Below are positions 33,699-64,000 of a stretch of DNA of 64,000 nucleotides, piece after piece. Position 1 is the first letter of the stretch, and each line of letters opens with the position of its first letter. Source of the DNA: Magnolia sinica (taxonomy: Eukaryota; Streptophyta; Magnoliopsida; Magnoliales; Magnoliaceae); assembly GCF_029962835.1 (NCBI RefSeq), contig NC_080584.1, positions 76,040,862 to 76,104,861 of the forward strand, read 5' to 3'. Both the position numbers and the translations under genes were made by a program. The notes under the pieces are model-generated. The model saw only the letters and a program-made list of their open reading frames with translations, was not told the DNA's origin and did no database searches.

Positions 33699-34921
33699 CT
33701 ACGGTATATCTTGCTTTAGGATAACACTCACTTTCTCAGTCAAGAAGATTTTCTTTTGAATATTTTGTCGTCTTTTAGTCGTATATAAGTCTTTTAGAAA
33801 TTTGGCATATGAAGGTATTTGTTTCATGGCATCAAGTAGAGGAATGTTGATTTTCACTTGTTTCAACACCTCTAGAATATCCTGAGAGTTAAAAAGAGGT
33901 TTTGGTGCAACCAACTGTTGGGGAAATGGAACAACTGGCTTCCCTTGAGGTTCCGGTTCTAACTCTGGTGGGGCATGGCAAGATCCATCTTCTTTGTCCA
34001 CTTCTGGGTCCTTAGGCTTTTCAGCCCTAATTGAAATAGTTTTGTCAATGATCTTCCCACTTCTAAGAGTGGTGATGGATTTAGCTTGCTCCATGTAATT
34101 TGAAGAGCTTGGGTCGTTAACTTCATATTGTGGTTTAGGATTGGGAAGAGGTTGAGCTGGGAAGCTCCCCTTGTTCCCAATCGTATTTTCAACCTTAAGT
34201 CCTTGTATCACTTTTGTAAAGTCTTGAAAGGCTTGTAGCGTACCCTGATTGAAAAGCTCTTGCTTTTGAAAGTGTTTTAGAACTGAATCCTCTTGAGGTT
34301 TCTCTTGAATTGGAATTTGATTTAGGAAACCTTGAGGTGTAGCGGTTTGTCCATTCCTCCAACTGAAGTTTAGATGATTTCTCCAATCGGGATTATATAT
34401 GTTAGAGGTGGGCCCACTAAAAGGTCTTTGGTAATTGCTTACAACATTAGATTGCTCATTTAGTACCTCTTGAAAGGCAGATATAGTTGGGCAATTTTCA
34501 GTAGTGTTAATGTTGCAACCACAAATACTGCAAACAATTTCTTTAGTCTTATCCTTCTTTAATTCCATGGCCTCGAGTTTTCTAGTGAGATAAGCTATTT
34601 TAGCATTGATATCATCATCCTCTTTCAGGAGATACATTTCACCCCTTTCCTTAGAATGAGTCGGCCTAAACATAGTACTTGGTCTAGGAGAGATGTCCCA
34701 TGATTGTGTCTTCTCAACAAGCTTATCAAAGTAGTCCCACACCTCATCAACACCTTTATTCATAAAATCTCCATTGCATATCGTCTCGACTAATTGGCGT
34801 ATGGGAGATGTCATTCCATCATAGAAAAAGTTCATGATGCGCCACATTTTAAAACCATGTTGTGAGCATGAACTGACGAGATACTTGAACTGTTCCCAAA
34901 TTGGAAGAATGTTTCATCTTC
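33699..34921 (-). pseudogene. Gypsy gag, N-terminus removed by CACTA insertion
   Basis: The open frame 33699-34847 reads MWRIMNFFYDGMTSPIRQLV, EMYLLKEDDDINAKIAYLTR, CSICGCNINTTENCPTISAF, NYQRPFSGPTSNIYNPDWRN and HLNFSWRNGQ, the gag of Athila-like elements. The frame continues upstream through IWEQFKYLVSSCSQHGFK to a stop near 34915, and homology ends at 34921 where the CACTA terminus begins. The zinc-knuckle-like C-x2-C-x8-C stretch is present. The missing gag start and 5' LTR are predicted on the far side of the CACTA element, beyond the window. Confidence 0.9.
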
Positions 34922-35400
34922 CACTACCAAAAAAACGGGTAAAGGCTACGGATTTAATCCGTAGCCATAGACCTAAGGCTACGGATTAAGTCCGTAGCTA
35001 GTCCGTAACACGACCGTCGTCGTAGGTGCCATAACGATAGGTCTGGAACCTATGGCTACAGATTTAATCCGTAGCCATAGACCTATGGCTACGGATTAAA
35101 TCCGTAGCCTTTTCCCCTGTAGCAAAAAAAATAAACAGCTATAGATATTATTTGTAGCTGAAAGTCCGTAGCAATAAGCCAAAATTTAAAAGGCTATACC
35201 TATCTGATTATTGGCTACGGATTTAATCCGTAGCTATATTGTAAATAGCTATAGATATAATCCATAGCAATTATATCTGTAGCAAAAACTTCAAACAGCT
35301 ACGGATATTATTTGTAGCTGAAGGTCCGTAGCAATATGCCAAAATTAAAAAGGCTACACCTGTTTGACTAGTGGCTACGGTCAATATCCGTAGCTATTTT
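34922..35400. repeat. CACTA terminal and subterminal repeats
   Basis: At least seven palindromes of the form GGCTACGGATTTAATCCGTAGC occur, near 34944, 34975, 35052, 35083, 35211, 35299 and 35373, some as weaker AGCTATAGATAT variants. Each is self-complementary, as expected for binding sites of the CACTA DNA-binding protein. The pattern ends at about 35400. Confidence 0.8.
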
Positions 35401-35817
35401 GTACATTGAAAAATTAAATCACCTATTCATTCAATTACCACCTGTTCATTCAAATACCACCTGTACAATCATTCATTCATTCAATTACAATCCTTCATTC
35501 ATTCAATTACAATTACAATCCTACATTTAATTAATTACAATTACAATCAATTACAGTTACAAATACAATAATGCTGAAAATACAAATCTTTGGCTTCATT
35601 AGAGAAATGTGCTCGACTTCACTGAATTTCAGCAGCTTCGTATATTCCATCATCCTACAAACAGTCATGTCATTCATAAATTAGAATGCCCATTAGAGAA
35701 AAGAAAGACAGTAAAAGAAGTGCATCACATATAACCACTTTTTTTTTCTTAATGAATTAAAAAAAAAACTCAAAGAGGAATGAAATTGACATAAAAGAAA
35801 TGGTCTCACCATATGAT
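35401..35817 (-). other. Spacer with possible last CACTA exon
   Basis: CATTCATTCAATTACAA repeats fill 35410-35560. On the minus strand near 35655 a good acceptor (TTTGTAG|GATG) precedes a short open piece DDGIYEAAEIQ and a stop. It could be the last exon of a CACTA gene whose intron would then contain the satellite. Evidence is weak. Confidence 0.3.
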
Positions 35818-35959
35818 TATAGGTTTAGATTTAGGTTATAGGTTTAGGTTAAGGTTAGGCTATAGGTTATAATTAAGTTTAGGTTATAGGTTAAGGTTTA
35901 GGTTATAGATTTTGGTTTAGGTTTGGTTTAAGGTTTAGGTTATAGGTTATAGCTTTTGG

Positions 35960-37800: not shown

Positions 37801-39430
37801 GGAATTGAGTTTAGGTTTAGGTTTAGGATTAGGTCTAGGTTGAGGTTTAGGGAATTGAGTTTAGGTTATAGGTTTAGGTTTAGGTTTAGGTTGAGGTTTA
37901 GGGAATTGAGTTTAGGCTATAGGTTTAGGTTTAGGTTTAAGTTTAGGTTGAGGTTTAGGGAATTGACTTTAGGCTATAGGTTTAGGTTTAAGTCTACGTC
38001 TAGGTTAAGGTTTAGGGAATGGAGTTTAGGCTATAGGTTTAAGTTTAGGTCTAGGTTGAGGTTTAGGGAATTGAGTTTAGATTATAGGTTTATGTTTAGG
38101 TCTAGGTCTAGGTTCAGGTTTAGGGAATTGAGTTTAGGTTATGGTTTAGGATTAGGTCTAGGTTGAGGTTTAGGGAATTAAGTTTAGGCTATAGGTTTAG
38201 GTTGAGGTTTAGGGAATTGAGTTTAGGTTATAGGTTTAGGTTTAGATTTAGGTTGAGGTTTAGGGAATTGAGTTTAGGTTTAGGTTTAGGATTAGGTCTA
38301 GGTTGAGGTTTAGGGAATTGAGTTTAGGTTATAAGTTTAGGTTTAGGTTTAGGATGAGGTTTAGGGAAATGAGTTTAGGCTATAGGTTTAGGTTTAGGTT
38401 TAAGTTTAGGTTGAGGTTTAGGGAATTGAGTTTAGGCTATAGGTTTAGGTTTAAGTCTACGTCTAGGTTAAGGTTTAGGGAATTGAGTTTAGGCTATAGG
38501 TTTAAGTTTAGGTCTAGGTTGAGGTTTAGGGAATTGAGTTTAGGTTATAGGTTTAGGTTTAGGTCTAAGTCTAGGTTCAGGTTTAGGGAATTGAGTTTAG
38601 GTTTAGGTTTAGGATTAGGTCTAGGTTGAGGTTTAGGGAATTGAGTTTAGGTTATAGGTTTAGGTTGAGGTTTAGGGAATTGAGTTTAGGTTATAGGTTT
38701 AGGTTTAGATTTAGGTTGAGGTTTAGGGAATTGAGTTTAGGCTATAGGTTTAGGTTTAGGTCTAGGTCTAGGTTGAGGTTTAGGGAATTGAGTTTAGGCT
38801 ATAGGTTTAGGTTTAGGTCTAGGTCAGTGGTTAAGGTTTAGGGATTTGAGTTTAGGCTATAGGTTTAAGTTTAGGTGTATGTTGAGGTTAGGTTATAGGT
38901 TTAGGTTTAGGTGTCAGTTTGGGTTTTGATTATAGGTTTATGTTAGGTTATAGGTTAAGGATTAGGGATTTGAGTTTAGGTTTAGGTTTAGGATTAGGTC
39001 TAGGTTGAGGTTTAGGGAATTGAGTTTAGGTTATAGGTTTAGGTTTAGGTTGAGGTTTAGGGAATTGAGTTTACGCTATAGGTTTAGGTTTAGGTCTAGG
39101 TCTAGGTTGAGGTTTAGGGAATTGAGTTTAGGCTATAAGTTTAGGTTTAAGTCTAGGTCTAGGTTAAGGTTTAGGGAATTGAGTTTATGTTATAGGTTTA
39201 GGTTTAGGTTTAGGTTGAGGTTTAGGGAATTGGGTTTAGGCTATAGGTTTAGGTTTAGGTCTAGGTCTAGGTTAAGGTTTAGGGATTTGAGTTTAGGTTT
39301 AGGTTTAGGATTAGGTCTAGGTTGAGGTTTAGGGAATTGACTTTAGACTATAGGTTTAGGTTTAGGTCTAGGTCAGCGGTTAAGGTTTAGGGATTTGAGT
39401 TTAGGCTATAGGTTTAGGTTTAGGTTTAGG

Positions 39431-42400
39431 TCTATTTTAAGGTTTAGGGAATTGAGTTTAGGTTTAGGTTTAGGATTAGGTCTAGGTTGAGGTTTAGGGA
39501 ATTGAGTTTAGGTTATAGGTTTAGGTTTAGGTTTAGGTTGAGGTTTAGGGAATTGAGTTTAGGCTATAGGTTTAGGTTTAGGTTTTGATTTAGGTTGAGG
39601 TTTAAGGAATTGAGTTTAGGCTATAGGTTTAGGTTTAAGTCTAGGTCTAGGTTAAGGTTTAGGGAATTGAGTTTAGGCTATAGGTTTAAGTTTAGGTCAA
39701 GGTTGAGGTTTAGGGAATTGAGTTTGGCTATAGGTTTAGGTTTAGGTCTTGGTCTAGGTTAAGGTTTAGGGATTTGAGTTTAGGTTTAGGTTTAGGATTA
39801 GGTATAGGTTGAGGTTTAGGGAATTGAGTTGAGGTTATAGGTTTAGGTTGAGGTTTAGGAAATTGAGTCTAGGTTATAGGTTTAGGTTTTGGTTTAGGTT
39901 GAGGTTTAGGGAATGAGTTTAGGCTATAGGTTTAGGTTTAGGTCTAGGTCTAGGTTGAGGTTTAGGGAATTGAGTTTAGGCTATAGGTTTAGGTTTAGGT
40001 CTAGGTCTAGGTTAAGGTTTAGGGAATTGAGTTTAGGTTATAGGTTTAGGTTTAGGTTTAGGTTGAGGTTTAGGCAATTGAGTTTAGGCTATAGGTTTAG
40101 GTTTAGGTCTAGGTCTAGGTTATGGTTTAGGGATTTGAGTTTAGGTTTAGGTTTAGGATTAGGCCTAGGTTGAGGTTTAGGGAATTGAGTTTAGGCTATA
40201 GGTTTAGGTTTAGGTCTAGGTCAGCGGTTAAGGTTTAGGTATTTGAGTTTAGGCTATAGGTTTAGGTTTAGGTGTAGGTCTAGGTTAAGGTTTAGGGAAA
40301 TGAGTTTAGGTTTAGGTTTAGGTTTAGGTCTAGGTTGAGGTTTAGGGAATTGAGTTTAGGTTATAGGTTTAGGTTTAGGTTTAGGTTGAGGTTTAGGGAA
40401 TTGAGTTTAGGCTATAGGTTTAGGTTTAGGTTGAGGTTTAGGGAATTGAGTTTAGGCTATAGGTTTAGGTTTAGGTTTAGGTTGAGGTTTAGGGAATTGA
40501 GTTTAGGTTATAGGTTTAGGTTTAGGTCTAGGTCTAGGTTAAGGTTTAGGGAATTGAGTTTAGGTTTAGGTTTAGGATTAGGTCTAGGTTGAGGTTTAGG
40601 GAATTGAGTTTAGGTTATAGGTTTAGGTTTAGGTTTAGGTTGAGGTTTAGGGAATTGAGTTTAGGCTATAGGTTTAGGTTTTGGTTTAGGTTTAGGTTGA
40701 GGTTTAGGGAATTGAGTTTAGGCTATAGGTTTAGGTTTAAGTCTAGGTCTAGGTTAAGGTTTAGAGAATTGAGTTTAGGCTATAGGTTTAAGTTTAGGTC
40801 TAGGTTGAGGTTTAGGGAATTGAGTTTAGGCTATAGGTTTAGGTTTAGGTCTAGGTCTAGGTTAAGGTTTAGGGATTTGAGTTTAGGTTTAGGGTTAGGA
40901 TTAGGTCTAGGTTGAGGTTTAGGGAATTGAGTTTAGGTTATAGGTTTAGGTTTAGGTTTAGGTTGAGGTTTAGGGAATTGAGTTTAGGCTATAGGTTTTG
41001 GTTTAGGTCTAGGTCTAGGTTAAGGTTTAGGGATTTGAGTTTAGGTTTAGGTTTAGGATTAGGTCTAGGTTGAGGTTTAGGGAATTGAGTTTAGGTTATA
41101 GGTTTAGGTTTAGCTTTAGGTTAAGGTTTAGGGAATTGAGTTTAGGCTATATGTTTTGGTTTAGGTTTAGGTCTAGGTTAAGGTTTAGGGATTTGAGTTT
41201 AGGTTTAGGTTTAGGATTAGGTCTAGGTTGAGGTTTAGGGAATTGAGTTTAGGTTATAGGTTTAGGTTGAGGTTTAGGAAATTGAGTTTAGGTTATAGGT
41301 TTAGGTTTAGGTTTAGGTTGAGGTTTAGGGAATTGAGTTTAGTATATAGGTTTAGGTTTAAGTCTAGGTCTAGGTTAATGTTTAGGGAATTGAGTTTAGG
41401 CTATAGGTTTAGGTTTAGGTTTAGGTTGAGGTTTAGGGAATTGAGTTTAGGCTATAGGTTTAGGTTTAGGTCTAGGTCAGTGGTTAAGGTTTAGGGATTT
41501 GAGTTTAGGCTATAGGTTTAAGTTTAGGTGTATGTTGAGGTTAGGTTATAGGTTTAGGTTTAGGTGTCAGTTTGGGTTTTGATTATAGGTTTATGTTAGG
41601 TTATAGGTTAAGGATTAGGGATTTGAGTTTAGGTTTAGGTTTAGGATTAGGTCTAGGTTGAGGTTTAGGGAATTGAGTTTAGGTTATAGGTTTAGGTTTA
41701 GGTTGAGGTTTAGGGAATTGAGTTTACGCTATAGGTTTAGGTTTAGGTCTAGGTCTAGGTTGAGGTTTAGGGAATTGAGTTTAGGCTATAAGTTTAGGTT
41801 TAAGTCTAGGTCTAGGTTAAGGTTTAGGGAATTGAGTTTTTGTTATAGGTTTAGGTTTAGGTTTAGGTTGAGGTTTAGGGAATTGGGTTTAGGCTATAGG
41901 TTTAGGTTTAGGTCTAGGTCTAGGTTAAGGTTTAGGGATTTGAGTTTAGGTTTAGGTTTAGGATTAGGTCTAGGTTGAGGTTTAGGGAATTGACTTTAGA
42001 CTATAGGTTTAGGTTTAGGTCTAGGTAAGCGGTTAAGGTTTAGGGATTTGAGTTTAGGCTATAGGTTTAGGTTTAGGTTTAGGTCTATTTTAAGGTTTAG
42101 GGAATTGAGTTTAGGTTTAGGTTTAGGATTAGGTCTAGGTTGAGGTTTAGGGAATTGAGTTTAGGTTATAGGTTTAGGTTTAGGTTTAGGTTGAGGTTTA
42201 GGGAATTGAGTTTAGGCTATAGGTTTAGGTTTAGGTTTTGATTTAGGTTGAGGTTTAAGGAATTGAGTTTAGGCTATAGGTTTAGGTTTAAGTCTAGGTC
42301 TAGGTTAAGGTTTAGAGAATTGAGTTTAGGCTATAGGTTTAAGTTTAGGTCAAGGTTGAGGTTTAGGGAATTGAGTTTGGCTATAGGTTTAGGTTTAGGT

Positions 42401-45400
42401 CTAGGTCTAGGTTAAGGTTTAGGGATTTGAGTTTAGGTTTAGGTTTAGGATTAGGTATAGGTTGAGGTTTAGGGAATTGAGTTGAGGTTATAGGTTTAGG
42501 TTGAGGTTTAGGAAATTGAGTCTAGGTTATAGGTTTTGGTTTTGGTTTAGGTTGAGGTTTAGGGAATGAGTTTAGGCTATAGGTTTAGGTTTAGGTCTAG
42601 GTCTAGGTTGAGGTTTAGGGAAATGAGTTTAGGCTACAGGTTTAGGTTTAGGTCTAGGTCTAGGTTAAGGTTTAGGGAATTGAGTTTAGGTTATAGGTTT
42701 AGGTTTAGGTTTAGGTTGAGGTTTAGGCAATTGAGTTTAGGCTATAGGTTTAGGTTTAGGTCTAGGTCTAGGTTATGGTTTAGGGATTTGAGTTTAGGTT
42801 TAGGTTTAGGATTAGGCCTAGGTTGAGGTTTAGGGAATTGAGTTTAGGCTATAGGTTTAGGTTTAGGTCTAGGTCAGCGGTTAAGGTTTAGGTATTTGAG
42901 TTTAGGCTATAGGTTTAGGTTTAGGTGTAGGTCTAGGTTAAGGTTTAGGGAAATGAGTTTAGGTTTAGGTTTAGGTTTAGGTCTAGGTTGAGGTTTAGGG
43001 AATTGAGTTTAGGTTATAGGTTTAGGTTTAGGTTTAGGTTGAGGTTTAGGGAATTGAGTTTAGGCTATAGGTTTAGGTTTAGGTTGAGGTTTAGGGAATT
43101 GAGTTTAGGCTATAGGTTTAGGTTTAGGTTTAGGTTGAGGTTTAGGGAATTGAGTTTAGGTTATAGGTTTAGGTTTAGGTCTAGGTCTAGGTTAAGGTTT
43201 AGGGAATTGAGTTTAGGTTTAGGTTTAGGATTAGGTCTAGGTTGAGGTTTAGGGAATTGAGTTTAGGTTATAGGTTTAGGTTTAGGTTTAGGTTGAGGTT
43301 TAGGGAATTGAGTTTAGGCTATAGGTTTAGGTTTTGGTTTAGGTTTAGGTTGAGGTTTAGGGAATTGAGTTTAGGCTATAGGTTTAGGTTTAAGTCTAGG
43401 TCTAGGTTAAGGTTTAGAGAATTGAGTTTAGGCTATAGGTTTAAGTTTAGGTCTAGGTTGAGGTTTAGGGAATTGAGTTTAGGCTATAGGTTTAGGTTTA
43501 GGTCTAGGTCTAGGTTAAGGTTTAGGGATTTGAGTTTAGGTTTAGGGTTAGGATTAGGTCTAGGTTGAGGTTTAGGGAATTGAGTTTAGGTTATAGGTTT
43601 AGGTTTAGGTTTAGGTTGAGGTTTAGGGAATTGAGTTTAGGCTATAGGTTTTGGTTTAGGTCTAGGTCTAGGTTAAGGTTTAGGGATTTGAGTTTAGGTT
43701 TAGGTTTAGGATTAGGTCTAGGTTGAGGTTTAGGGAATTGAGTTTAGGTTATAGGTTTAGGTTTAGCTTTAGGTTAAGGTTTAGGGAATTGAGTTTAGGC
43801 TATATGTTTTGGTTTAGGTCTAGGTCTAGGTTAAGGTTTAGGGATTTGAGTTTAGGTTTAGGTTTAGGATTAGGTCTAGGTTGAGGTTTAGGGAATTGAG
43901 TTTAGGTTATAGGTTTAGGTTGAGGTTTAGGAAATTGAGTTTAGGTTATAGGTTTAGGTTTAGGTTTAGGTTTAGGTTTAGGGAATTGAGTTTAGTATAT
44001 AGGTTTAGGTTTAAGTCTAGGTCTAGGTTAATGTTTAGGGAATTGAGTTTAGGCTATAGGTTTAGGTTTAGGTTTAGGTTGAGGTTTAGGGAATTGAGTT
44101 TAGGCTATAGGTTTAGGTTTAGGTCTAGGTCAGTGGTTAATGTTTAGGGATTTGAGTTTAGGCTATAGGTTTAAGTTTAGGTGTATGTTGAGGTTAGGTT
44201 ATAGGTTTAGGTTTAGGTGTCAGTTTGTGTTTTGATTATAGGTTTATGTTAGGTTATAGGTTAAGGATTAGGGATTTGAGTTTAGGTTTAGGTTTAGGAT
44301 TAGGTCTAGGTTGAGGTTTAGGGAATTGAGTTTAGGTTATAGGTTTAGGTTTAGGTTGAGGTTTAGGGAATTGAGTTTACGCTATAGGTTTAGGTTTAGG
44401 TCTAGGTCTAGGTTGAGGTTTAGGGAATTGAGTTTAGGCTATAAGTTTAGGTTTAAGTCTAGGTCTAGGTTAAGGTTTAGGGAATTGAGTTTTTGTTATA
44501 GGTTTAGGTTTAGGTCTAGGTTGAGGTTTAGGGAATTGAGTTTAGGTTATAGGTTTAGGTTGAGGTTTAGGAAATTGAGTTTAGGTTATAGGTTTAGGTT
44601 TAGGTTTAGGTTGAGGTTTAGGGAATTGAGTTTAGTATATAGGTTTAGGTTTAAGTCTAGGTCTAGGTTAATGTTTAGGGAATTGAGTTTAGGCTATAGG
44701 TTTAGGTTTAGGTTTAGGTCTAGGTTAAGGTTTAGGGATTTGAGTTTAGGTTTAGGGTTAGGATTAGGTCTAGGTTGAGGTTTAGGGAATTGAGTTTAGG
44801 CTATAGGTTTAGGTTTAGGTCTAGATCTAGGTTAAGGTTTAGGGATTTGAGTTTAGGTTTAGGGTTAGGATTAGGTCTAGGTTGAGGTTTAGGGAATTGA
44901 GTTTAGGTTATAGGTTTAGGTTTAGGTTTAGGTTGAGGTTTAAGGAATTGAGTTTAGGCTATAGGTTTTGGTTTTGGTCTAGGTCTAGGTTAAGGTTTAG
45001 GGATTTGAGTTTAGGTTTAGGTTTAGGATTTGGTCTAGGTTGAGGTTTAGGGAATTGAGTTTAGGTTATAGGTTTAGGTTTAGCTTTAGGTTAAGGTTTA
45101 GGGAATTGAGTTTAGGCTATATGTTTTGGTTTAGGTCTAGGTCTAGGTTAAGGTTTAGGGATTTGAGTTTAGGTTTAGGTTTAGGATTAGGTCTAGGTTG
45201 AGGTTTAGGGAATTGAGTTTAGGTTATAGGTTTAGGTTGAGGTTTAGGAAATTGAGTTTAGGTTATAGGTTTAGGTTTAGGTTTAGGTTGAGGTTTAGGG
45301 AATTGAGTTTAGTATATAGGTTTAGGTTTAAGTCTAGGTCTAGGTTAATGTTTAGGGAATTGAGTTTAGGCTATAGGTTTAGGTTTAGGTTTAGGTTGAG

Positions 45401-48400
45401 GTTTAGGGAATTTAGTTTAGGCTATAGGTTTAGGTTTAGGTCTAGGTCTAGGTTAAGGTTTAGGGATTTGAGTTTAGGTTATAGGTTTAGGTTTAGGTTG
45501 AGGTTTAGGGAATTGAGTTTAGGCTATAGGTTTAGGTTTAGGTCTAGGTCTAGGTTGAGGTTTAGGGAATTGAGTTTAGGCTATAAGTTTAGGTTTAAGT
45601 CTAGGTCTAGGTTAAGGTTTAGGGAATTGAGTTTATGTTATAGGTTTAGGTTTAGGTTTAGGTTGAGGTTTAGGGAATTGGGTTTAGGCTATAGGTTTAG
45701 GTTTAGGTCTAGGTCTAGGTTAAGGTTTAGGGATTTGAGTTTAGGTTTAGGTTTAGGATTAGGTCTAGGTTGAGGTTTAGGGAATTGACTTTAGACTATA
45801 GGTTTAGGTTTAGGTCTAGGTCAGCGGTTAAGGTTTAGGGATTTGAGTTTAGGCTATAGGTTTAGGTTTAGGTTTAGGTCTATTTTAAGGTTTAGGGAAT
45901 TGAGTTTAGGTTTAGGTTTAGGATTAGGTCTAGGTTCAGGTTTAGGGAATTGAGTTTAGGTTATAGGTTTAGGTTTAGGGAATTGAGTTTAGGCTATAGG
46001 TTTAGGTTTAGGTTTAGATTTAGGTTGAGGTTTAAGGAATTGAGTTTAGGCTATAGGTTTAGGTTTAAGTCTAGGTCTAGGTTAAGGTTTAGGGAATTGA
46101 GTTTAGGCTATAGGTTTAAGTTTAGGTCAAGGTTGAGGTTTAGGGAATTGAGTTTGGCTATAGGTTTAGGTTTAGGTCTAGGTTTAGGTTAAGGTTTAGG
46201 GATTTGAGTTTAGGTTTAGGTTTAGGATTAGGTATAGGTTGAGGTTTAGGGAATTGAGTTGAGGTTATAGGTTTAGGTTGAGGTTTAGGAAATTGAGTCT
46301 AGGTTATAGGTTTAGGTTTCGGTTTAGGTTGAGGTTTAGGGAATGAGTTTAGGCTATAGGTTTAGGTTTAGGTCTAGGTCTAGGTTGAGGTTTAGGGAAT
46401 TGAGTTTAGGCTATAGGTTTAGGTTTAGGTCTAGGTCTAGGTTAAGGTTTAGGGAATTGAGTTTAGGTTATAGGTTTAGGTTTAGGTTTAGGTTGAGGTT
46501 TAGGCAATTGAGTTTAGGCTATAGGTTTAGGTTTAGGTCTAGGTCTAGGTTATGGTTTAGGGATTTGAGTTTAGGTTTAGGTTTAGGATTAGGCCTAGGT
46601 TGAGGTTTAGGGAATTGAGTTTAGGCTATAGGTTTAGGTTTAGGTCTAGGTCAGCGGTTAAGGTTTAGGTATTTGAGTTTAGGCTATAGGTTTAGGTTTA
46701 GGTGTAGGTCTAGGTTAAGGTTTAGGGAAATGAGTTTAGGTTTAGGTTTAGGTTTAGGTCTAGGTTGAGATTTAGGGAATTGAGTTTAGGTTATAGGTTT
46801 AGGTTTAGGTTTAGGTTGAGGTTTAGGGAATTGAGTTTAGGCTATAGGTTTAGGTTTAGGTTGAGGTTTAGGGAATTGAGTTTAGGCTATAGGTTTAGGT
46901 TTAGGTTTAGGTTGAGGTTTAGGGAATTGAGTTTAGGTTATAGGTTTAGGTTTAGGTCTAGGTCTAGGTTAAGGTTTAGGGAATTGAGTTTAGGTTTAGG
47001 TTTAGGATTAGGTCTAGGTTGAGGTTTAGGGAATTGAGTTTAGGTTATAGGTTTAGGTTTAGGTTTAGGTTGAGGTTTAGGGAATTGAGTTTAGGCTATA
47101 GGTTTAGGTTTTGGTTTAGGTTTAGGTTGAGGTTTAAGGAATTGAGTTTAGGCTATAGGTTTAGGTTTAAGTCTAGGTCTAGGTTAAGGTTTAGAGAATT
47201 GAGTTTAGGTTATAGGTTTAAGTTTAGGTCTAGGTTGAGGTTTAGGGAATTGAGTTTAGGCTATAGGTTTAGGTTTAGGTCTAGGTCTAGGTTAAGGTTT
47301 AGGGATTTGAGTTTAGGTTTAGGGTTAGGATTAGGTCTAGGTTGAGGTTTAGGGAATTGAGTTTAGGTTATAGGTTTAGGTTTAGGTTTAGGTTGAGGTT
47401 TAGGGAATTGAGTTTAGGCTATAGGTTTTGGTTTAGGTCTAGGTCTAGGTTAAGGTTTAGGGATTTGAGTTTAGGTTTAGGTTTAGGATTAGGTCTAGGT
47501 TGAGGTTTAGGGAATTGAGTTTAGGTTATAGGTTTAGGTTTAGCTTTAGGTTAAGGTTTAGGGAATTGAGTTTAGGCTATATGTTTTGGTTTAGGTCTAG
47601 GTCTAGGTTAAGGTTTAGGGATTTGAGTTTAGGTTTAGGTTTAGGATTAGGTCTAGGTTGAGGTTTAGGGAATTGAGTTTAGGTTATAGGTTTAGGTTGA
47701 GGTTTAGGAAATTGAGTTTAGGTTATAGGTTTAGGTTTAGGTTTAGGTTGAGGTTTAGGGAATTGAGTTTAGTATATAGGTTTAGGTTTAAGTCTAGGTC
47801 TAGGTTAATGTTTAGGGAATTGAGTTTAGGCTATAGGTTTAGGTTTAGGTTTAGGTTGAGGTTTAGGGAATTGAGTTTAGGCTATAGGTTTAGGTTTAGG
47901 TCTAGGTCTAGGTTAAGGTTTAGGGATTTGAGTTTAGGTTATAGGTTTAGGTTTAGGTTGAGGTTTAGGGAATTGAGTTTACGCTATAGGTTTAGGTTTA
48001 GGTCTAGGTCTAGGTTGAGGTTTAGGGAATTGAGTTTAGGCTATAAGTTTAGGTTTAAGTCTAGGTCTAGGTTAAGGTTTAGGGAATTGAGTTTATGTTA
48101 TAGGTTTAGGTTTAGGTTTAGGTTGAGGTTTAGGGAATTGGGTTTAGGCTATAGGTTTAGGTTTAGGTCTAGGTCTAGGTTAAGGTTTAGGGATTTGAGT
48201 TTAGGTTTAGGTTTAGGATTAGGTCTAGGTTGAGGTTTAGGGAATTGACTTTAGACTATAGGTTTAGGTTTAGGTCTAGGTCAGCGGTTAAGGTTTAGGG
48301 ATTTGAGTTTAGGCTATAGGTTTAGGTTTAGGTTTAGGTCTATTTTAAGGTTTAGGGAATTGAGTTTAGGTTTAGGTTTAGGATTAGGTCTAGGTTGAGG

Positions 48401-51400: not shown

Positions 51401-53130
51401 GAGGTTTAGGAAATTGAGTCTAGGTTATAGGTTTAGGTTTTGGTTTAGGTTGAGGTTTAGGGAATGAGTTTAGGCTATAGGTTTAGGTTTAGGTCTAGGT
51501 CTAGGTTGAGGTTTAGGGAATTGAGTTTAGGCTATAGGTTTAGGTTTAGGTCTAGGTCTAGGTTAAGGTTTAGGGAATTGAGTTTAGGTTATAGGTTTAG
51601 GTTTAGGTTTAGGTTGAGGTTTAGGCAATTGAGTTTAGGCTATAGGTTTAGGTTTAGGTCTAGGTCTAGGTTATGGTTTAGGGATTTGAGTTTAGGTTTA
51701 GGTTTAGGATTAGGCCTAGGTTGAGGTTTAGGGAATTGAGTTTAGGCTATAGGTTTAGGTTTAGGTCTAGGTCAGCGGTTAAGGTTTAGGTATTTGAGTT
51801 TAGGCTATAGGTTTAGGTTTAGGTGTAGGTCTAGGTTAAGGTTTAGGGAAATGAGTTTAGGTTTAGGTTTAGGTTTAGGTCTAGGTTGAGGTTTAGGGAA
51901 TTGAGTTTAGGTTATAGGTTTAGGTTTAGGTTTAGGTTGAGGTTTAGGGAATTGAGTTTAGGCTATAGGTTTAGGTTTAGGTTGAGGTTTAGGGAATTGA
52001 GTTTAGGCTATAGGTTTAGGTTTAGGTTTAGGTTGAGGTTTAGGGAATTGAGTTTAGGTTATAGGTTTAGGTTTAGGTCTACGTCTAGGTTAAGGTTTAG
52101 GGAATTGAGTTTAGGTTTAGGTTTAGGATTAGGTCTAGGTTGAGGTTTAGGGAATTGAGTTTAGGTTATAGGTTTAGGTTTAGGTTTAGGTTGAGGTTTA
52201 GGGAATTGAGTTTAGGCTATAGGTTTAGGTTTTGGTTTAGGTTTAGGTTGAGGTTTAGGGAATTGAGTTTAGGCTATAGGTTTAGGTTTAAGTCTAGGTC
52301 TAGGTTAAGGTTTAGAGAATTGAGTTTAGGCTATAGGTTTAAGTTTAGGTCTAGGTTGAGGTTTAGGGAATTGAGTTTAGGCTATAGGTTTAGGTTTAGG
52401 TCTAGGTCTAGGTTAAGGTTTAGGGATTTGAGTTTAGGTTTAGGGTTAGGATTAGGTCTAGGTTGAGGTTTAGGGAATTGAGTTTAGGTTATAGGTTTAG
52501 GTTTAGGTTTAGGTTGAGGTTTAGGGAATTGAGTTTAGGCTATAGGTTTTGGTTTAGGTCTAGGTCTAGGTTAAGGTTTAGGGATTTGAGTTTAGGTTTA
52601 GGTTTAGGATTAGGTCTAGGTTGAGGTTTAGGGAATTGAGTTTAGGTTATAGGTTTAGGTTTAGCTTTAGGTTAAGGTTTAGGGAATTGAGTTTAGGCTA
52701 TATGTTTTGGTTTAGGTCTAGGTCTAGGTTAAGGTTTAGGGATTTGAGTTTAGGTTTAGGTTTAGGATTAGGTCTAGGTTGAGGTTTAGGGAATTGAGTT
52801 TAGGTTATAGGTTTAGGTTGAGGTTTAGGAAATTGAGTTTAGGTTATAGGTTTAGGTTTAGGTTTAGGTTGAGGTTTAGGGAATTGAGTTTAGTATATAG
52901 GTTTAGGTTTAAGTCTAGGTCTAGGTTAATGTTTAGGGAATTGAGTTTAGGCTATAGGTTTAGGTTTAGGTTTAGGTTGAGGTTTAGGGAATTGAGTTTA
53001 GGCTATAGGTTTAGGTTTAGGTCTAGGTCTAGGTTAAGGTTTAGGGATTTGAGTTTAGGTTTAGGTTTAGGATTAGGTCTAGGTTGAGGTTTAGGGAATT
53101 GAGTTTAGGCTATAGGTTTAGGTTTAGGTA
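39431..53130 (+). repeat. Higher-order repeat block, five copies of about 2.46-3.8 kb
   Basis: The marker TCTATTTTAA occurs at 39431, 42084, 45879, 48339 and 50982, giving steps of 2653, 3795, 2460 and 2643 bp. A second marker, TAGGCAATTG, occurs at 40071, 42724, 46501, 48979 and 51622 with matching steps (2653, 3777, 2478, 2643). Copies are nearly identical by eye over hundreds of bases. The long step contains an inner duplication of 1317 bp (TATATGTTTT at 43801 and 45118). Copies 3 to 5 lack a roughly 190-bp block (GTCAGTGGTTAAGG ... GTGTCAGTTTGGG) present at about 38820, 41480 and 44130. Confidence 0.9.
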
Positions 53131-55930
53131 TAGGTCAGCGGTTATGGTTTAGGGATTTGAGTTTAGGCTATTGGTTTAAGTTTAGGTGTAGGTTGAGGTG
53201 AGGTTATAGGTTTAGGTTTAGGTGTCGGTTTGGGTTTTGGTTATAGGTTTAGGTTAGGTTATAGGTTAAGGTTTAGGGATTTGAGTTTAGGTTTAGGTTT
53301 AGGATTAGGTCTAGGTTTAGGTTTAGGGAATTGAGTTTAGGCTATAGGTTTAGGTTTAAGTCTAGGTCTAGGTTAAGGTTTAGGGAATTGAGTTTAGGCT
53401 ATAGGTTTAGGTTTAGGTTTAGGTTGAGGTTTAGGGAATTGAGTTTAGGTTATTGGTTTAGGTTTAGGTCTAGGTCTAGGTTAAGTTTTAGGGAATTGAG
53501 TTTAGGTTTAGGTTTAGGATTAGGTCTAGGTTAAGGTTTAGGGAATTGAGTTTAGGTTATAGGTTTAGGTTTATGTTTAGGTTGAGGTTTAGGGAATTGA
53601 GTTTAGACTATAGGTTTAGGTTTAGGTTTAGGTTTAGGTTGAGGTTTAGGGAATTGAGTTTAGGCTATAGGTTTAGGTTTAAGTCTAGGTCTAGGTTAAG
53701 GTTTAGAGAATTGAGTTTAGGCTATAGGTTTAAGTTTAGGTCTAGGTTAAGGTTTAGGGAATTGAGTTTAGGCTATAGGTTTAGGTTTAGGTCTAGGTCT
53801 AGGTTAAGGTTTAGGGATTTGAGTTTAGGTTTAGGTTTAGGATTAGGTCTAGGTTGAGGTTTAGGGAATTGAGTTTAGGTTATAGGTTTAGGTTGAGGTT
53901 TAGGGAATTGAGTTCAGGTTATAGGTTTAGGTTTGGGTTTAGGTTGAGGTTTAGGGAATTGAGTTTAGGCTATAGGTTTAGGTTTAGGTCTAGGTTGAGG
54001 TTTAGGGAATTGAGTTTAGGCTATAGGTTTAGGTTTAGGTCTAGGTCAGCGGTTAAGGTTTAGGGATTTGAGTTTAGGCTATAGCTTTAAGTTTAGGTGT
54101 AGGTTGAGGTTAGGTTATAGGTTTAGGTTTAGGTTTAGGTTTAGGTGTCGGTTTGGGTTTTGGTTATAGGTTTAGGTTATGTTATAGGCTAAGGTTTAGG
54201 GATTTGAGTTTAGGTTTAGGTTTAGGATTAGGTCTAGGTTGAGGTTTAGGGAATTGAGTTTAGGTTATAGGTTTATGTTTAGGTTTAGGTTGAGGTTTAA
54301 GGAATTGAGTTTAGGCTATAGGTTTAGGTTTAGGTCTAGGTCTAGGTTAAGGTTTAGGGATTTGAGTTTAGGTTTAGGTTTAGGATTAGGTCTAGGTTGA
54401 GGTTTAGGGAATTGAGTTTAGGTTATAGGTTTAGGTTGAGGTTTAGGGAATTGAGTTTAGGTTATAGGTTTAGGTTTAGGTTTAGGTTGAGGTTTAGGGA
54501 ATTGAGTTTAGGCTATAGGTTTAGGTTTAAGTCTAGGTATAGGTTAAGGTTTAGGGATTTGAGTTTAGGTTTAGGTTTAGGATTAGGTCTAGGTTGAGGT
54601 TTAGGGAATTGAGTTTAGGCTATAGGTTTAGGTTTAGGTATAGGTCAGCGGTTATGGTTTAGGGATTTGAGTTTAGGCTATAGGTTTAAGTTTAGGTGTA
54701 GGTTGAGGTGAGGTTATAGGTTTAGGTTTAGGTTTAGGTTTAGGTGTCGGTTTGGGTTTTGGTTATAGGTTTAGGTTAGGTTATAGGTTAAGGTTTAGAG
54801 ATTTGAGTTTTGGTTTAGGTTTAAGATTAGGTCTAGGTTTAGGTTTAGGGAATTGAGTTTAGGCTATAGGTTTAGGTTTAAGTCTAGGTCTAGGTTAAGG
54901 TTTAGGGAATTGAGTTTTGGCTATAGGTTTAGGTTTAGGTTTAGGTTGAGGTTTAGGGAATTGAGTTTAGGTTATAGGTTTAGGTTTAGGTCTAGGTCTA
55001 GGTTAAGGTTTAGGGAATTGAGTTTAGGTTTAGGTTTAGGATTAGGTCTAGGTTGAGGTTTAGGGAATTGAGTTTACGTTATAGGTTTAGGTTTAAGGAA
55101 TTGAGTTTAGGTTATAGGTTTAGGTTTAGGTCTAGGTCTAGGTTAAGGTTTAGCGATTTGAGTTTAGGCTATAGGTTTAAGTTTAGGTCTAGGTTGAGGT
55201 TAGGTTATAGGTTTATGCTTAGGTTTAGGTTTAGGTGTCGGTTTGGGTTTTGGTTATAGGTTTAGGATTAGGTCTAGGTTGAGGTTTAGGAAATTGAGTT
55301 TAGGCTATAGGTTTAGGTTTAGGTTTAGGTTGAGGTTTAGGGAATTGAGTTTAGGTTATTGGTTTAGGTTTAGGTTTAGGTTTAAGTTATAAGACATAGG
55401 TTTAGGGAATTGAGAATAGGTTAAGGTTTAGGTTTAGGAAATCGGGTTTGGGTTCGAGGTCGGGTTTATGTTTGGGTTTTCAAGTTTAGGTATAGGTTTA
55501 GGTTAGGGAGTTACGATTAGGATTAGGTGTAGGTTTAAGTTTAGGGAATTGAGAATACATTTAGGTTATAGGTTTAGGTTTAGGTTTTAGGTTTTAGGTT
55601 AAGGTTATATGTTCAGGTTTATATTATAGGTTTAAGTTAAGGTTGAGGTTTTGGGTTATAGGTTAAGGTTTTAGGTCATGGGTTTTGGTTTAGGTTATAG
55701 GTTATAGGTATAAGTTAAGGTTTAGGTTTAGGTTTAGGTTTAAGTTTAGGTTATACGACATAGGTTTAGGGAATTGAGAATAGGTTAAGGTTTAGGTTTA
55801 GGAAATCGGGTTTGGGTTCGGGGTCGGGTTTATGTTTGGGTTTTCAAGTTTAGGTATAGGTTTAGGTTAGGGAGTTACGATTAGGATTAGGTGTAGGTTC
55901 AAGTTTAGGTTTTGGTTTAGGTTAAGGGTA
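53131..55930 (+). repeat. Right diverged edge of the satellite
   Basis: The motif GTCAGCGGTTATGG occurs at 53134 and 54644 (1510-bp step). Cap units with AAATCGGGTTTGGGTTCG lie at 55441 and 55805 (364-bp step). The last TTTAGG hexamers end near 55925. Confidence 0.8.
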
Positions 55931-55939
55931 TGGTCCCTG

Positions 55940-56290
55940 CAAAGCAAATACAGATATAAATACGGCCATCCGACATAAATGACAGGCCCCTCCAATGCTG
56001 TCCATAAAAAATGGACAGCTTCATCATGGTCATAATAGCAGTTTCCTCTTTCCATGGAACCCCGCTCTTCCGAATAGCTCCGACGCACATCCGGGTCTGC
56101 TCCATTAATTTCGATCAAATACATAAACACGGCCTATCCAAATGGCCAGGCCCCTCCAATGCTGTCCATAGGAAATGGACAGCTTCATCATGGTCATAAC
56201 AACGGTTCCCACCTTCCAAGGACCCCCGCTTATCCGGACAGCTCCGACGCACATCCGGGTCTGCTCCATTAATTTCGAGCAAATTTAATG
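55940..56290. repeat. 164-bp tandem duplication flanking the satellite
   Basis: Two units share CAGGCCCCTCCAATGCTGTC (55983 and 56147), GGACAGCTTCATCATGGTCA and CGACGCACATCCGGGTCTGC. The step of 164 is not a multiple of three and the minus-strand frames shift from unit to unit, so coding is unlikely despite the open frames. Confidence 0.8.
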
Positions 56291-57052
56291 GAGCAAATAC
56301 GTAACCACTTGGTCTCAAATACTTACTTTATAAAAGAAAATCTCCCCTGTTTTCTCAAATATTCTATTTCGATCTTTTTTAGTTCAAATCCATGTCAATG
56401 CATGAGAATCATACATAAACATGGATTTTAAGCAAAATACATGAGGGAAATTACAACATAGATATCATGCACACGATATCACATAATGTACTGTTTAATG
56501 AACTACACATATGCATTCTTGACAAGAGACGTACCAGATGCTTGAATCTGAAATATGCAGCTCCAACCCTCCCACATGCAACATCCACCTGAAAGAATGT
56601 GTATAACCGTCATGCTTGAGTAATCAATATAGGAATGTACAAGTAAAACTATAAAACCAGAGATACTCACTGCATTTTCAAGATCTCCTCCATAGTTGAC
56701 GATTCATTCTAAAGCCCTTCTCCCTCCTCCTTTACCCGGGCTTGGGACCGGCAATGCAAGGAGTTGCATTGGCGGAGTTAAAAAAGAGCTTAGGCTCCAT
56801 TTGGTTTTTTAAAAAAAAAATATTTTTATAAATACTAATGTGATGACCAAATAGAGCCTAAGACTATAAATACGTTCAAATATAGAGTACAAAATTCATT
56901 CAATATTAAAAGAAATAAAAAAACAAGTGCCAAATTAGTTCAAAATGCACACAACAAGTTCAAAATTAGTTCAAAATTCACACAACAAGTTTAAATTGAG
57001 TTCAAAATGCACACAACACATGTTCAATTATACAGTACGAAATTTGTTCAAA
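56291..57052 (-). other. CACTA internal spacer with possible small exon
   Basis: On the minus strand 56540-56595 is bounded by TTTCAG| and |GTACGT and reads VDVACGRVGAAYFRFKHL. It could be a 3' exon of a CACTA gene, but I cannot name it. A GC-rich patch at 56720-56770 (CCCGGGCTTGGGACCGGCAA) and AAAATGCACACAACAAGTTC repeats at 56940-57020 are the only other features. Confidence 0.35.
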
Positions 57053-58869
57053 TTATTAAATTCTCAAAGCCTCTTTCCCCCATTGCACAAATGATCCTAG
57101 ACCGGCCTCTCCAAGTGTAGATGCGAACCCATCTTCTTTCCACAAAGGAGTGTGAGGTTGTATAACCTCAGTCAGGACAACAACAAAAGCTCCATCCTCC
57201 AACGGCTCGCAATGGACAGTTGCATTTGGATTAATTTCGTGTACTTCACCACGAGCAACTACACCACGTTTTCCAAAACCAAGCAAGTCGCATCTCTTAC
57301 CGATATATATAATATTCGGCTACATTTACACATAAAATGGCATTGGTATTGTTAGCGTTTATAATATAATTGTAAGCTCATTATAGTAAAAAATTTATAC
57401 TTGCATACCGACGACGCCTAAGTAGATTTAGCGATTGTTGGTGATGAGAGATTTTGAGTATACTGTCTATCTTTCTGCATATCAACCAACGTTTTCTTCA
57501 TCTCAACTATATTTTAGGTCATACCATCCAATTTTTTCTTCACCTGAGATAACTCTTGAGTTACGCTCTCTTTTTCTTTTATCACATTCTCTACCTTTGA
57601 ACGAGCAGGGGCTGACTTCTTCAGTCCGACCTTGCTTATTGAGCAACCTAGACCCCGCATTCGCCCTCTATTGTCAGACCCAACCAACTGTAAAACATTG
57701 TAAATTAAGTTATTAGGATATTCATAATTACCATAAAACTCTACTAATTTTTAAATTTTATTACTACCTCTGTAAGGGCATCATCCATGCCAGTCATCCT
57801 AGAAGCAGGATTGCTACTATAGAGCTCATCTAGTTTTTCCTGTGAAAAAATACAAATGAATGCAATATAATTCAAAGTTATACTTAGGCTTTTCACAAGG
57901 GTACTAGTTAGTGGTACGAGGGATACACTTACAGCAAGTTCAGGATATTGGACAACTTTGTCCTTTCTTGTATGGGCTCTTAAGAAGACTTCACATCTAC
58001 CTATCTCGACATCAGAGGTAAGATTCTTCTCCATCGCCTTTGGCACATTATATATCATTGAAATACACATCACTAATAGATTTAGATGAATGATAATTCA
58101 AATTTAAATTCAATTTTAAACTATAATATCTATTTTTAAATACATACCATCTTATGGCGAGTAACAGCCATGCTGTGCCTCCCAAGACACGCAGGTCCTT
58201 TTAGCTTGGCCCGATTGACTTTATTCCTTGTGCTTACCCTCTTGAATTCCTCGGTGGTACATTGATCCACGAAGGCCTTCCAATCCTCCATAGGGATACC
58301 TGGGGGGACAGGACCATCTCTTACAGCAATAGAATCCTTGTTCGTAATATATTTTGCAGTCAATCTTCTCTTCTATTCCTCCACGCTTCATTGATGCGTT
58401 TTGTAACGTAATCAAGACTTGCAGCCCAACTTTGACCCTCAAACTCATAAAACTGTGACAATCTTTCTGTGACCATATGAATATGTTCATGAGGCACTTG
58501 GCGAAAGTCCGGGTATATGATCGGGATATGAGAACGAGTGAGGACACCGACATGCGATGCAAAGTCCCTGTGATCGGAACAGTCCTCATTCGGTTGCCCG
58601 AATTCATTCGTCTTTAGGACTTTTTTCCTATCAAGTGGCACAAGTAAAGAGACCCCCCTAGTAATGCCTCTTTTTTTAGATGAAGAAGAAGCTGACACAA
58701 TTACATAAAAAAATAACAGTTATATATACACATCATTGATTACTGCCAATATATAAGGAAAAGGAAATTTACATATATAATTAAGAAGAAGTATCTTATT
58801 ACCTTTGGTATTGCTTGAATCTTTACTCCCAAGCACCTGCGCACCCAATACCTCTGCTTGTGAATCCAT
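57053..58869 (-). pseudogene. CACTA second gene (Transposase_24 / DUF8039 type)
   Basis: Start ATG at 58869 (MDSQAEVLGAQVLGSK), donor near 58802, then 58698 down: GITRGVSLLVPLDRKKVLKT, IPIIYPDFRQVPHEHIHMVT and LSQFYEFEGQSWAASLDYVT. After a one-base frameshift near 58365 it reads TAKYITNKDSIAVRDG and GIPMEDWKAFVDQCTTEEFK. Further exons hold RCEVFLRAHTRKDK (58000), DELYSSNPASRMTGMDDALT (57790), NRGRMRGLGCSISKVGLKKS plus a coiled coil with two stops (57410-57690), and a DUF8039-like end GEVHEINPNATVHCEPL (57056-57320). This is the usual accessory gene after plant CACTA transposases. Function is not firmly known; DNA binding is assumed. Confidence 0.8.
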
Positions 58870-59041
58870 GTGCCTATTTCTTCCCTAATATGAAAAGATA
58901 AGAAAAGATTTTTTTTTTTTTAAGCTAATAGTTAAGAAATAATTTAGATCACAGATAAAGTATAAAAAATTCACTATATTATCCAAACCTTATTTAAACT
59001 TCCTCCAACAAATATCATTCTGTTACATGCTTAGAAAATAC

Positions 59042-62000
59042 AAACAAATCAGTAGATTCTCTTCGATCGTTTTCTTTTCTTTGTTTTCTCGACCACAACA
59101 CTGACATCTTCAGATTTATTGAATATCAATTCATCAACCGTTGCTAATGAGGTGAGATCAGGTCCTGCATCAGCATTACTTACAGCCCTTAATCGTTCCG
59201 ATAGAACGCACGTCTCTTCTTCGACAAAAATTTTTTGGGGAACCTCTAAGACCACATGCCAGTCAGGATTTTTTGGATCTCTGGAGTAGAAAACTTGCGT
59301 GGCATGCTCTGCAAGAATGAAGGGCTCGTCACCGACTTGCCCTGAACTGTAAAGACTAGCCAAATTTACTAATCTCAAATTCGCTTCTGCATCAAAAGAA
59401 ACATCATGATGTGTCACTTTCACCCAATCACACTTAAATAGGACGGGCTTGTACCCTGTTCGGTACTCCAATTGGATAATTTTACGAAGGACTCCGTAGT
59501 AAGGTTGATTTTCATCCACTGTATTGAAATCTTTAGCACTTGATAGAAAGGTTGTCATACCCTCTGTCCTAACCCCACTGTTTTGGTTCGTTTTATTCTC
59601 CTCATAGTCCTTAGTGACAAAGAGGAAACCATTAATACAATATTTATTGTATTGCATAGAAAAAGCTAGAGGTCCTCTCACAACATCTTTAAATTCATTA
59701 TCGTCAGATTCAATGAACGCCGGTTGCCTTTTCAACCAAGATATGAATTCGTCCTCGTTAGGCACCCTGTTGATCCTCTTATAGCATCGCTGCAAGAAAT
59801 CTTTGTGCTTCCTGCGCGATATTCGATAACATTGTTATATTGAAATCGCATAAAGTAAAGAAGATAAATATATATATACATATATATATGAGCTTATTAT
59901 ACATACCATTCCCACTCGTCGTAGCTGGGATGACTCTTCAGTACCCATCTACGAGCTTGTTCGTATTCGATACCCGCTAGGATAACACTTTGACCCGAAC
60001 CTACTGGACCAACATCGTCATCATTAGAGTCATCATCAACGATATCTTCCAACTTACGTAGTCCTGGAATGACTCTGTTAAACCGTTTTTCCAGCTTTTC
60101 CAGTAGGCTTGTTTTCTGTTTTCCTTTATATTGATTGCAGAATATAACTATCTCCTCTTGGATGTACTGCTCTGCAATACAACCCTCAGGTCGTGTCTTG
60201 TTACGGACATAGGCCTTGAATGTCTTCATGAACCTGACAAAGTTAATGATACATTATATATACATGCAAATGTAGATGTTAAGCCGATTTATTCTTATTA
60301 AGCTCACAATGTACCTTTCGAATGGATACATCCATCGATAGTATACAGGACCACATATGCGAGCCTCGTAAGCCAAATGGATCGACATATGCATCATAAT
60401 GACAAATATCGATGGTGGGCATATAGTCCCAAGCTGACATAACGTCCTAGCCATGCCTCTCTCGAGATTAAGGAGTGTTTGAAGGTCTACGATTGTCGAG
60501 CACAAGACATTAAAGAAGGTGCAAAAGCTTGTAATTATAGGACGAATGACCTTTCTATCCCTGAATGCATGCTGGATGAGAACTGGGAGTAAATGTTGCA
60601 TCAACACATGGTAAGAATGAGACTTCATTCCCTTTAAATCCAAGCAATCTTCCTTTACGATGGTCCTCCAATTCGCACTAAAACCGATCGGAACACGCAG
60701 CTCATGTAAAGTTTGGATAAAAAGTTTTTTCTCTTCTTTTCTTAGACAGAAAGACTTTGTTTCTGAATCACCTTGCCATTGTTCATTTTCAGCCATAGAC
60801 ACTTCTTAATTCCCAATTGTTTCAGGTCCCTACGTGCATTAGCATCATCCTTGGTTTTGCCAGGCGTGTTCAACATCAAGGCAACAAGGATTTCACATAT
60901 ATTTTTCTCAATATGCATGACATCAAGGTTGTGACGCACGGGAATATCTTTTCAATACCTCAGATCAAATAATATAGACCGTTTGAAGAACCACTGTGAT
61001 TCAACATCATCCGCTAGCTCTTGTCGGCCTCCATCAATACCCCTTATATTACTCTTCCTAGTCTTCCCCCACTACATATTCAAGTTCACGGTTTGTCTTT
61101 CAACCTCAATCTCATCCAGACGGATCGGTTGATGTCGTATCTCCACCTTCTTGTTGAACGTGCCAGCACTTGTGTCCTTCCTAGCCTGTTCTGACATTGG
61201 CAACCATCGTCTGTGGCCCATATAAACATGTTTCTTTCCATATTGGAGTCGCAAAGAATCTGTGTTAGGACCACATATAGGACAACCATACTTACCCTTT
61301 GTCCTACAACCAGAAACGTTACCATATGCTGGAAAGTCATGAATTGTCAAAAGCAGAACAGCACGCATGTTGAATTTATTTTCATGGTATGCATCGAACG
61401 TCGTGACCCCTTCTCGCCATAACTTTTGTAGTTCATCAATCAATGGCTGTAAATAAACATTAATATCCTTTCCCGGTTGTCGCGGTCCCTCAATGAGCAA
61501 AGTCAACATAGTAAACTGAGGTTTCATGCAAAGCTTTGGTGGAAGGTTGTACGTCACACACATAACGGGCCATGAACTATGCGACATACTGAAAGTGCCG
61601 AACGGGTTAAACCCATCTGTAGCCAAACCCAATCGAACATTGCGAGGCTCAGCTGAAAAATCTGTATACTTGTCATTAAGATTCTTCCATGCAATAGAAT
61701 CAGCCGGATGCTCCATCTTTTCATGTTGAAATTTTCTGGTTGAGTGCCAAGACATTTCTTTCCCCAACCATGGCACACTGAACATTCTTTGTAGCCTTGG
61801 TGTTAATGGAAAATACCTTAACACCTTCCTAGGTATTGTAGATCCTTTTTTCTCAGAACCCATTTCAGTCTTGTACCTAGAAGTTTTACAATTTGGATAA
61901 ATGGTTTTCATCTCATTCTCTCTCCAGTATAAAATGCAGTCATTTGGACAAGCATGAATTTTCACATAATCAAGACCCTACTTTGTAATGATCTTCTTCG

Positions 62001-62341
62001 CTTGGTAGGTATTAGTTGGGGCCTTGTTACCGGAAGGAAACACCTTCTTTAGTAGTTGAAGGAGCTCTGTAAAGCTTTTTTCACTCCATCCATGATTCAC
62101 CTTTAATTTGAAAAGCTGTACAATGAAAGTCAGCACGGTGAAATCTTGGGCCCCAGGCTATAGTTCAGTCATTTTGTCTCGTAGATTTGCTTCAAACTCA
62201 TTAGTTTCATTTTCTCTGAAGACGCCTTCAACTATAGGGGTCACGTTGGGCTCATCCTGTACAACTTCATCTAGGTTATTACCACCAAGTTCTTGAACGA
62301 TCGCGTTGTGAACCTCATTTAAGTTTGAGACACTATGGTAT
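59042..62341 (-). pseudogene. CACTA transposase (TNP2 / Transposase_21 with DUF4218 and DUF4216)
   Basis: Minus strand from the LTR junction at 62341: FTVLTFIVQLFKLKVNHGWS, stop, then KIHACPNDCILYWRENEMKT, LATDGFNPFGTFSMSHSSWP, MLTLLIEGPRQPGKDINVYL, LLTIHDFPAYGNVSGCRTKG and YGCPICGPNTDS (61072-61965), the TNP2 core that cuts at CACTA ends. Next HNLDVMHIEKNICEILVAL and, after a one-base frameshift near 60790, ELRVPIGFSANWRTIVKEDC (DUF4218). A GT-AG intron separates FER from FMKTFKAYVRNKTRPEG (59897-60237). The DUF4216 exon (59049-59795) has YYGVLRKIIQLEYRTGYKPV and EPFILAEHATQVFYSRDP. Stops at about 62159, 61979, 61070 and 60953, the last at a conserved Trp, show it is inactive. Confidence 0.9.
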
Positions 62342-63730: not shown

Positions 63731-64000
63731 ATTTGCTCCCTGATGCTCCTGTACATCTGAAAAAGCCCAATATTGGACTCTATGGGTTGGTATCAAGCCA
63801 CAGAGACCAATGATACTAGAACTTGCTTAGACTGTCTGTATGCGAAAGTGAAAAGAATCATGAACAATTTCAAAAAAAAGGGGAACCTAACAACTTGGGA
63901 GCCTGATCGCTGCTCAATACATTGAGTGGGCTGCCTGACGGACGGACGTGCTGGGGCTCACGGCCCCAGCTGTGGGCCCCACCTTGGCTCCTTTCGATGA

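Follow-up and report, generated by a model that had tools for sequence, protein, structure and literature searches.

A TTTAGG-derived satellite array enclosed in a CACTA transposon of Magnolia sinica and shared by most copies with the same end

A stretch of 64,000 nucleotides of the Magnolia sinica genome (G000:C12:76040862-76104861; referred to here, at its full length, as the window) contains about 20 kb of tandem repeats built around the word TTTAGG, next to genes of a CACTA transposase. A first-pass annotation of this DNA had deduced, from order and shared orientation, that the array is carried inside a CACTA transposon. The locus hence raises the question of whether the array is truly enclosed in the element and, if so, whether it is peculiar to this copy or belongs to a family. 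The assembly used comprises 1.84 Gb in 127 contigs, C1-C19 being chromosome-sized in appearance (C19 is of 69 Mb, vs. 0.6 Mb for C29).

The 3′ terminus of the element is an 18-bp CACTA end, CACTACCAAAAAAACGGG, located at 34922-34939 (plus strand). The terminus previously proposed at 34922 was corroborated by an exact genome search, which yielded 95 copies of the 18-bp end and none of the reversed control. The first-pass annotation had also suggested that a second terminus be sought to the right of position 64000. We used for this analysis extended coordinates, that is, the window plus the next 40 kb (L009-L012), 104 kb in all. When up to three mismatches are allowed, the 18-bp end occurs only twice in this sequence, at 34922 and, inverted, at extended 69717-69734, outside the window. 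A first-order Markov model (150 runs) predicts 0.053 inverted ends in the 48 kb to the right of the array, a match of the flanks not yet being required. The flanks do match: TTC precedes the first terminus (34919-34921) and follows the second one (extended 69735-69737), and they represent a 3-bp target site duplication. The length of the element from terminus to terminus is 34,813 bp, and its end, formerly set at 62341, is to be moved to 69734. The element includes the whole 20.1-kb array, the TNP2 transposase and the N-terminal domain of TNP2 (PF13963). As seen from the genes, the array lies close to the 3′ end. Next to the 3′ terminus, at 34940-35400, sequence and motif counts reveal partly palindromic subterminal repeats of the GGCTACGGATT / AATCCGTAGCC type, and a similar motif occurs at the other end of the element as well; a spacer which alignment shows to be conserved in other copies (35401-35819) separates them from the array. 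Inverted CACTA ends, a 3-bp target site duplication, a Transposase_21 domain and subterminal repeats identify a CACTA (EnSpm) element. The array is enclosed by both inverted ends and by the target duplication. Containment, which had been deduced earlier, is demonstrated by the partner terminus, the matching duplication and the presence of the TNP2 N-terminal domain inside the element, together with the survey of the family described below.

Tandem Repeats Finder (TRF) reports a single TAGGTT array at 35820-55927, and GC skew ranges from 0.79 to 0.85 in every 2-kb window between 36001 and 56000 (ten in all), the array being strand-asymmetric. Both analyses confirm the 20-kb satellite annotated at 35818-55930; with word counts included, we delimit it to 35820-55930 (plus strand, 20.1 kb). 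It had been described as telomere-like, and this is correct for the word TTTAGG, which is present 1,366 times (TTTAGGT, 837; TTTAGGG, 301), but not for the canonical telomere repeat. TTTAGGG units never occur two in a row in the window array, TTTAGGGTTTAGGG is found 0 times, and in 217 of the 301 cases TTTAGGG is followed by AATT. Self-match of the array is 0.629 at lag 6 vs. 0.461 at lag 7, which corresponds to a period of 6. On the basis of these counts, a canonical telomeric or interstitial telomeric repeat consisting of TTTAGGG runs was discarded. The array is a hexamer-based repeat that resembles the telomere unit. A coding function of the array was likewise considered and is unsupported: minus-strand stop-to-stop frames of at least 150 amino acids are absent from it, and of its five plus-strand frames (168-204 amino acids), the one scanned gave no Pfam match.

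We then asked whether other copies of the element carry the same DNA. The first-pass annotation had proposed that copies with the same ends be examined for TTTAGG-like repeats at the same internal position, and the 95 exact occurrences of the 18-bp end, window included, were all surveyed over the 250 bp located at offset 1050-1300 inward. Array-type DNA was present at the same offset and in the same orientation in 84 of the 95 ends (14-29 TAGG and no CCTA per 250 bp). In the window outside the array, 171 segments of 250 bp each contain at most 3 TAGG, and the 11 array-negative ends contain 0-3. The 84 array-bearing ends are distributed over every one of C1-C19, plus C29, C37, C61 and C88. The survey thus shows the array, identically placed and oriented, in most copies that share the end. 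The trinucleotides outside the terminus differ among copies (TTC in the window; TGT, GTT, TGT, TGC and TTT in five others), which fits separate insertions.

Six of the array-negative ends (L001, L002, L005, L049, L052 and L113) constitute one other subfamily, its members being 95.7-100% alike where compared. That subfamily has the 18-bp end in common with the element, lacks the array and shares little else: in three of its copies, compared over 3 kb, the likeness to the element consists of the end plus short, weak matches to the 5′ half of the element. Another negative copy, L048, which is outside the six, shows weak matches to the element similar to those of this subfamily.

The array edges are also shared among copies. 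At the left side, the edge found in the window is present in all six other copies read (L003, L004, L006, L007, L008 and L044). The right flank of the array (55931-56717), delimited by flank search and TRF, is repeated many times across the genome. When 970 bp of non-array sequence from this side were used as a query, at least 39 matches at 96-97% identity were obtained besides the window; this is a lower bound obtained from a selected set, the best 40 of 3,794 candidates having been scored. Thirty flank loci, the window among them, were taken to read the right edge, and in 29 of the 29 other copies the array abuts the same boundary. An assembly join at either edge of the array, which the first-pass annotation had named as a refuting possibility, is disfavored because the same edges recur in other copies; judged from the sequences, this recurrence speaks against such a join. 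Directly to the right of the array, TRF also detects a repeat of almost two units, each of 164 bp (55983-56284).

Terminus and right edge could be paired in 18 copies including the window, 16 of them by flank and two by the position of a twister ribozyme motif located beyond the flank (35 of 62 scored twister places, described below, were used). The spans from end to edge range from about 3.4 to 29.4 kb, with a median of 9.4 kb, and that of the window is the second longest; 16 of the 18 spans measure 3.4-13.1 kb and have the same edges.

Taking these results together, we consider it highly probable that the element belongs to a CACTA (EnSpm) family which has the TTTAGG-derived array as an inherited internal part, flanked by the second gene on one side and by the 3′ subterminal repeats on the other. 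One ancestral element would have acquired the array, or grown it, at this place; transposition would then have distributed it through the genome, onto many chromosomes, and the array of each copy may since have lengthened or shortened on its own, with slippage or unequal exchange acting on the core and leaving the edges fixed. The array is most likely carried passively, at a place where the element can accommodate growth, and a function is unnecessary to account for the observations.

Several observations weigh against this interpretation. Only 6 of the 11 array-negative ends could be assigned to the other subfamily. Array-less relatives with a clean empty site, the outcome that the first-pass annotation had regarded as refuting, were not seen among the copies; five negatives (L048, L104, L117, L119 and L123) fall outside the six assigned. 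The target site duplication was verified at both ends in the window copy only. About 4.0 kb of other DNA stands between the PF13963 domain and the rest of TNP2, so that the transposase of the window copy is interrupted, which bears on the present mobility of this copy. Three arrays were read through (window, L043 and L044), and the other spans may hold inserts, as is the case of L028 near the right edge. For 24 of the 40 right flanks, an exact end is absent within 45 kb. Finally, array-end distances do not covary with distances over the whole first 960 bp of the flank (r −0.003, 1017 of 2000 permutations as high).

Different explanations can be contemplated. The first attributes a role to the array and takes into account the twister motif. 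This type-P1 twister ribozyme motif of 67 nt is located at 56718-56784, between the accessory open reading frames (ORFs) and the array, and has the same sense (minus strand) as the transposase genes. Its score of 72.7 bits, vs. an Rfam gathering score of 67.2, makes it a candidate self-cleaving ribozyme by the Rfam criterion. It is present in the 30 right-flank loci aligned, window included, and is unchanged in 18 of them. Genome-wide, 62 places were scored out of 82,502 candidates, and 57 of them exceed the gathering score; none was found in 14 control genomes. The 15 best places (75.4-76 bits) showed no tie to the element family in the span pairing, and some twister places lie outside the known flanks of the family. 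Under this explanation the array would serve the element and would be transcribed along with its genes into a C-rich repeat RNA, with splice-like sites around the array and the twister cutting the transcript between array and genes; in other words, a maintained giant repeat exon, giving rise to a telomere-complement-like RNA parted from the transposase message by self-cleavage. If this were true, the RNA might mark the chromatin of the element or bind telomere-repeat factors. The position and sense of the motif and its unchanged copies are consistent with such a role, as are the presence of the array in 84 of the 95 copies and the sequences that border it: reading along the gene strand, one passes into the array after TTTGCTTTGCAG/GG and out of it at ATG/GTGAGA, which are acceptor- and donor-like by eye (unscored). 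Against it, minus-strand stop-to-stop frames of at least 150 amino acids are absent from the array, the spans differ nearly tenfold, and no constraint on the twister beyond that of its surroundings is seen in the 30 copies (diversity of 0.016, vs. 0.014 and 0.031 in the flanks). We therefore regard a working role, giant exon included, as improbable.

A second explanation is that the array was captured by, or copied into, elements several times, with recombination or gene conversion between copies, and not once in an ancestor. Co-inheritance of array end and flank was analyzed in 30 copies, window included, the flank being the criterion of selection. The lack of covariation over the whole first 960 bp mentioned above favors repeated capture, as does the fact that flank segments hardly covary among themselves. 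Other comparisons point in the opposite direction. One variant of the array edge always occurs together with one variant of the flank next to it (both are present in 9 of the 30 copies and neither in 21), the last 110 bp of the array covary with the first 120 bp of the flank (r 0.35), and array-end distances covary with DNA that lies 960-1900 bp away from the edge (r of 0.53 and 0.62); none of 500 permutations was as high for any of these r values. The remaining flank segments show no covariation with the array end (r −0.06 to 0.11). Average divergence of the flank is about 2.6%, and the copies were selected by it, so that its covariation signal is thin. Overall, the agreement between array end and flank is mixed. 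Identical boundaries in every copy read, edge domains that are colinear, and the linkage of edge and flank variants all argue against repeated capture, to which we give still less credit than to a working role. A third explanation, that the length of the window array is in part an artefact, near-identical units of 2.5-2.65 kb having been added or lost by the assembler, gains from the 98.6-99.7% likeness of these core units on long diagonals, but another copy spans 29.4 kb, the 16 shorter spans have the same edges, and presence and edges of the array are independent of its length, so that we judge it as remote as repeated capture.

To return to a single inherited array, its internal structure can be described as follows. 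Shared-word counts by diagonal distinguish a core with higher-order units of about 2.46-2.65 kb (38655-53800, plus strand, right limit approximate) from the outermost kilobases of the array, which contain many single-copy words. The right-edge domain has a 364-bp unit (54820-55930, plus strand, left limit approximate). The L043 and L044 arrays are colinear with that of the window in the left edge, the core and the right edge with its 364-bp unit. Relative to these two short copies, the window array would have grown through the 2.5-2.65-kb units, about 99% alike, and the combination of such units with single-copy words at the edges is the trace to be expected from unequal exchange or slippage in the core. 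A second TTTAGG array is located about 22 kb to the right of the element (L011 and L012, extended about 92001-98500). It has a homologue of the right flank (L012:4314-4773), 84-86% like that of the window in the two longest unduplicated matches. This second array, for which no ends were found, probably represents an older relative.

All genes of the element are encoded on the minus strand. The TNP2 transposase predicted in the first-pass annotation was verified by a Pfam match to Transposase_21 in the ORF at 61072-61977 (E 1.9e-87). A search for TNP2 homologues gave 1,386 at E ≤ 0.001, the best 120 of which show 45-56% identity. Pfam also identifies DUF4218 in two ORFs (60254-60805 and 59897-60253), DUF4216 in another (59049-59834) and, with E 8.4e-16, PF13963, the N-terminal domain of such transposases, in an ORF at L009:2296-2778 (extended 66296-66778). 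The DNA interrupting TNP2 is bordered by two direct repeats of 78 bp, 96.2% identical (62267-62344 and L009:2375-2452, i.e., extended 66375-66452). As to the CACTA accessory gene previously reported, candidate ORFs exist at 57744-58719 and are taken for the second, TNPA-like gene, but they have no Pfam match.

The element is apparently inserted in a gag-like retroelement gene, represented by the outside DNA at 34500-34921 and from L009:5738 onward, both on the minus strand. When joined, the outside flanks resemble one retroelement gag in two frames, with a frame change near the junction; the gag likeness of the left side is presumed. Pfam gives at the right side a weak match to PF03732 (E 0.012, 16.3 bits, below the cut-off of 24.1) and at the left side PF13204 alone (E 0.09, below its cut-off). 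Elsewhere in the window, TRF detects a minisatellite with a 113-bp unit in 6.4 copies (26055-26792).

We describe here a DNA-transposon family that very probably transmits a long strand-asymmetric hexamer satellite whenever it jumps; a single genome contains 84 of its array-bearing ends. That genome now allows testing how satellites grow after being planted, and whether a single transposon family sets the genome-wide pattern of telomere-like repeats. A word of caution also derives from this case, as blocks rich in TTTAGG within plant chromosomes are not necessarily left over from chromosome fusions. By title and opening of the abstract, and with few subscription papers covered, no publication on CACTA elements with telomere-like or interstitial telomeric repeats was found to describe such a case, although the terms concerned do occur in an oat paper (PMC6874827); neither was any found, within similar coverage of subscription papers, for twister and CACTA.

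The published systems are compared here on the basis of the accessible parts of the corresponding papers. Internal arrays with the TTTAGG word are a feature shared with plant interstitial telomeric repeats (e.g., PMC4219495). The plant telomere unit is TTTAGGG (PMC10827815) and, unlike plant telomere repeats, the Magnolia array has no two consecutive units of it. Bread wheat has satellites homologous to CMC-EnSpm transposons (PMC10827815), and in both species tandem repeats are linked to CACTA/EnSpm elements; the wheat satellites match parts of transposon sequences, whereas the Magnolia array lies whole inside the elements, with fixed edges. Soybean Tgmt*, a CACTA element of 20.5 kb (PMC2613891), resembles the Magnolia element in its large size, its imperfect ends, its subterminal repeats and its 3-bp target duplication; the accessible parts of that report do not mention a satellite, and the Magnolia element carries one. 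A likeness in location is shown by Jozin, a CACTA element of Chenopodium quinoa of 16,523 bp found on four scaffolds, whose captured satellite has a monomer of 171 bp and forms an array of 5,550 bp close to the 3′ end (Belyayev et al. 2022, PMC8978399). Both are CACTA elements with Transposase_21 in which several elements have a satellite array close to the 3′ end. Unlike that of Jozin, the Magnolia array is hexamer-based and strand-asymmetric, extends over 3.4-29.4 kb by span and is present in 84 of 95 ends. Satellites carried by CACTA elements close to the 3′ end are thus a known kind, from which the Magnolia array differs in its large size, its regularity, its hexamer base and its presence at 84 of the 95 ends.

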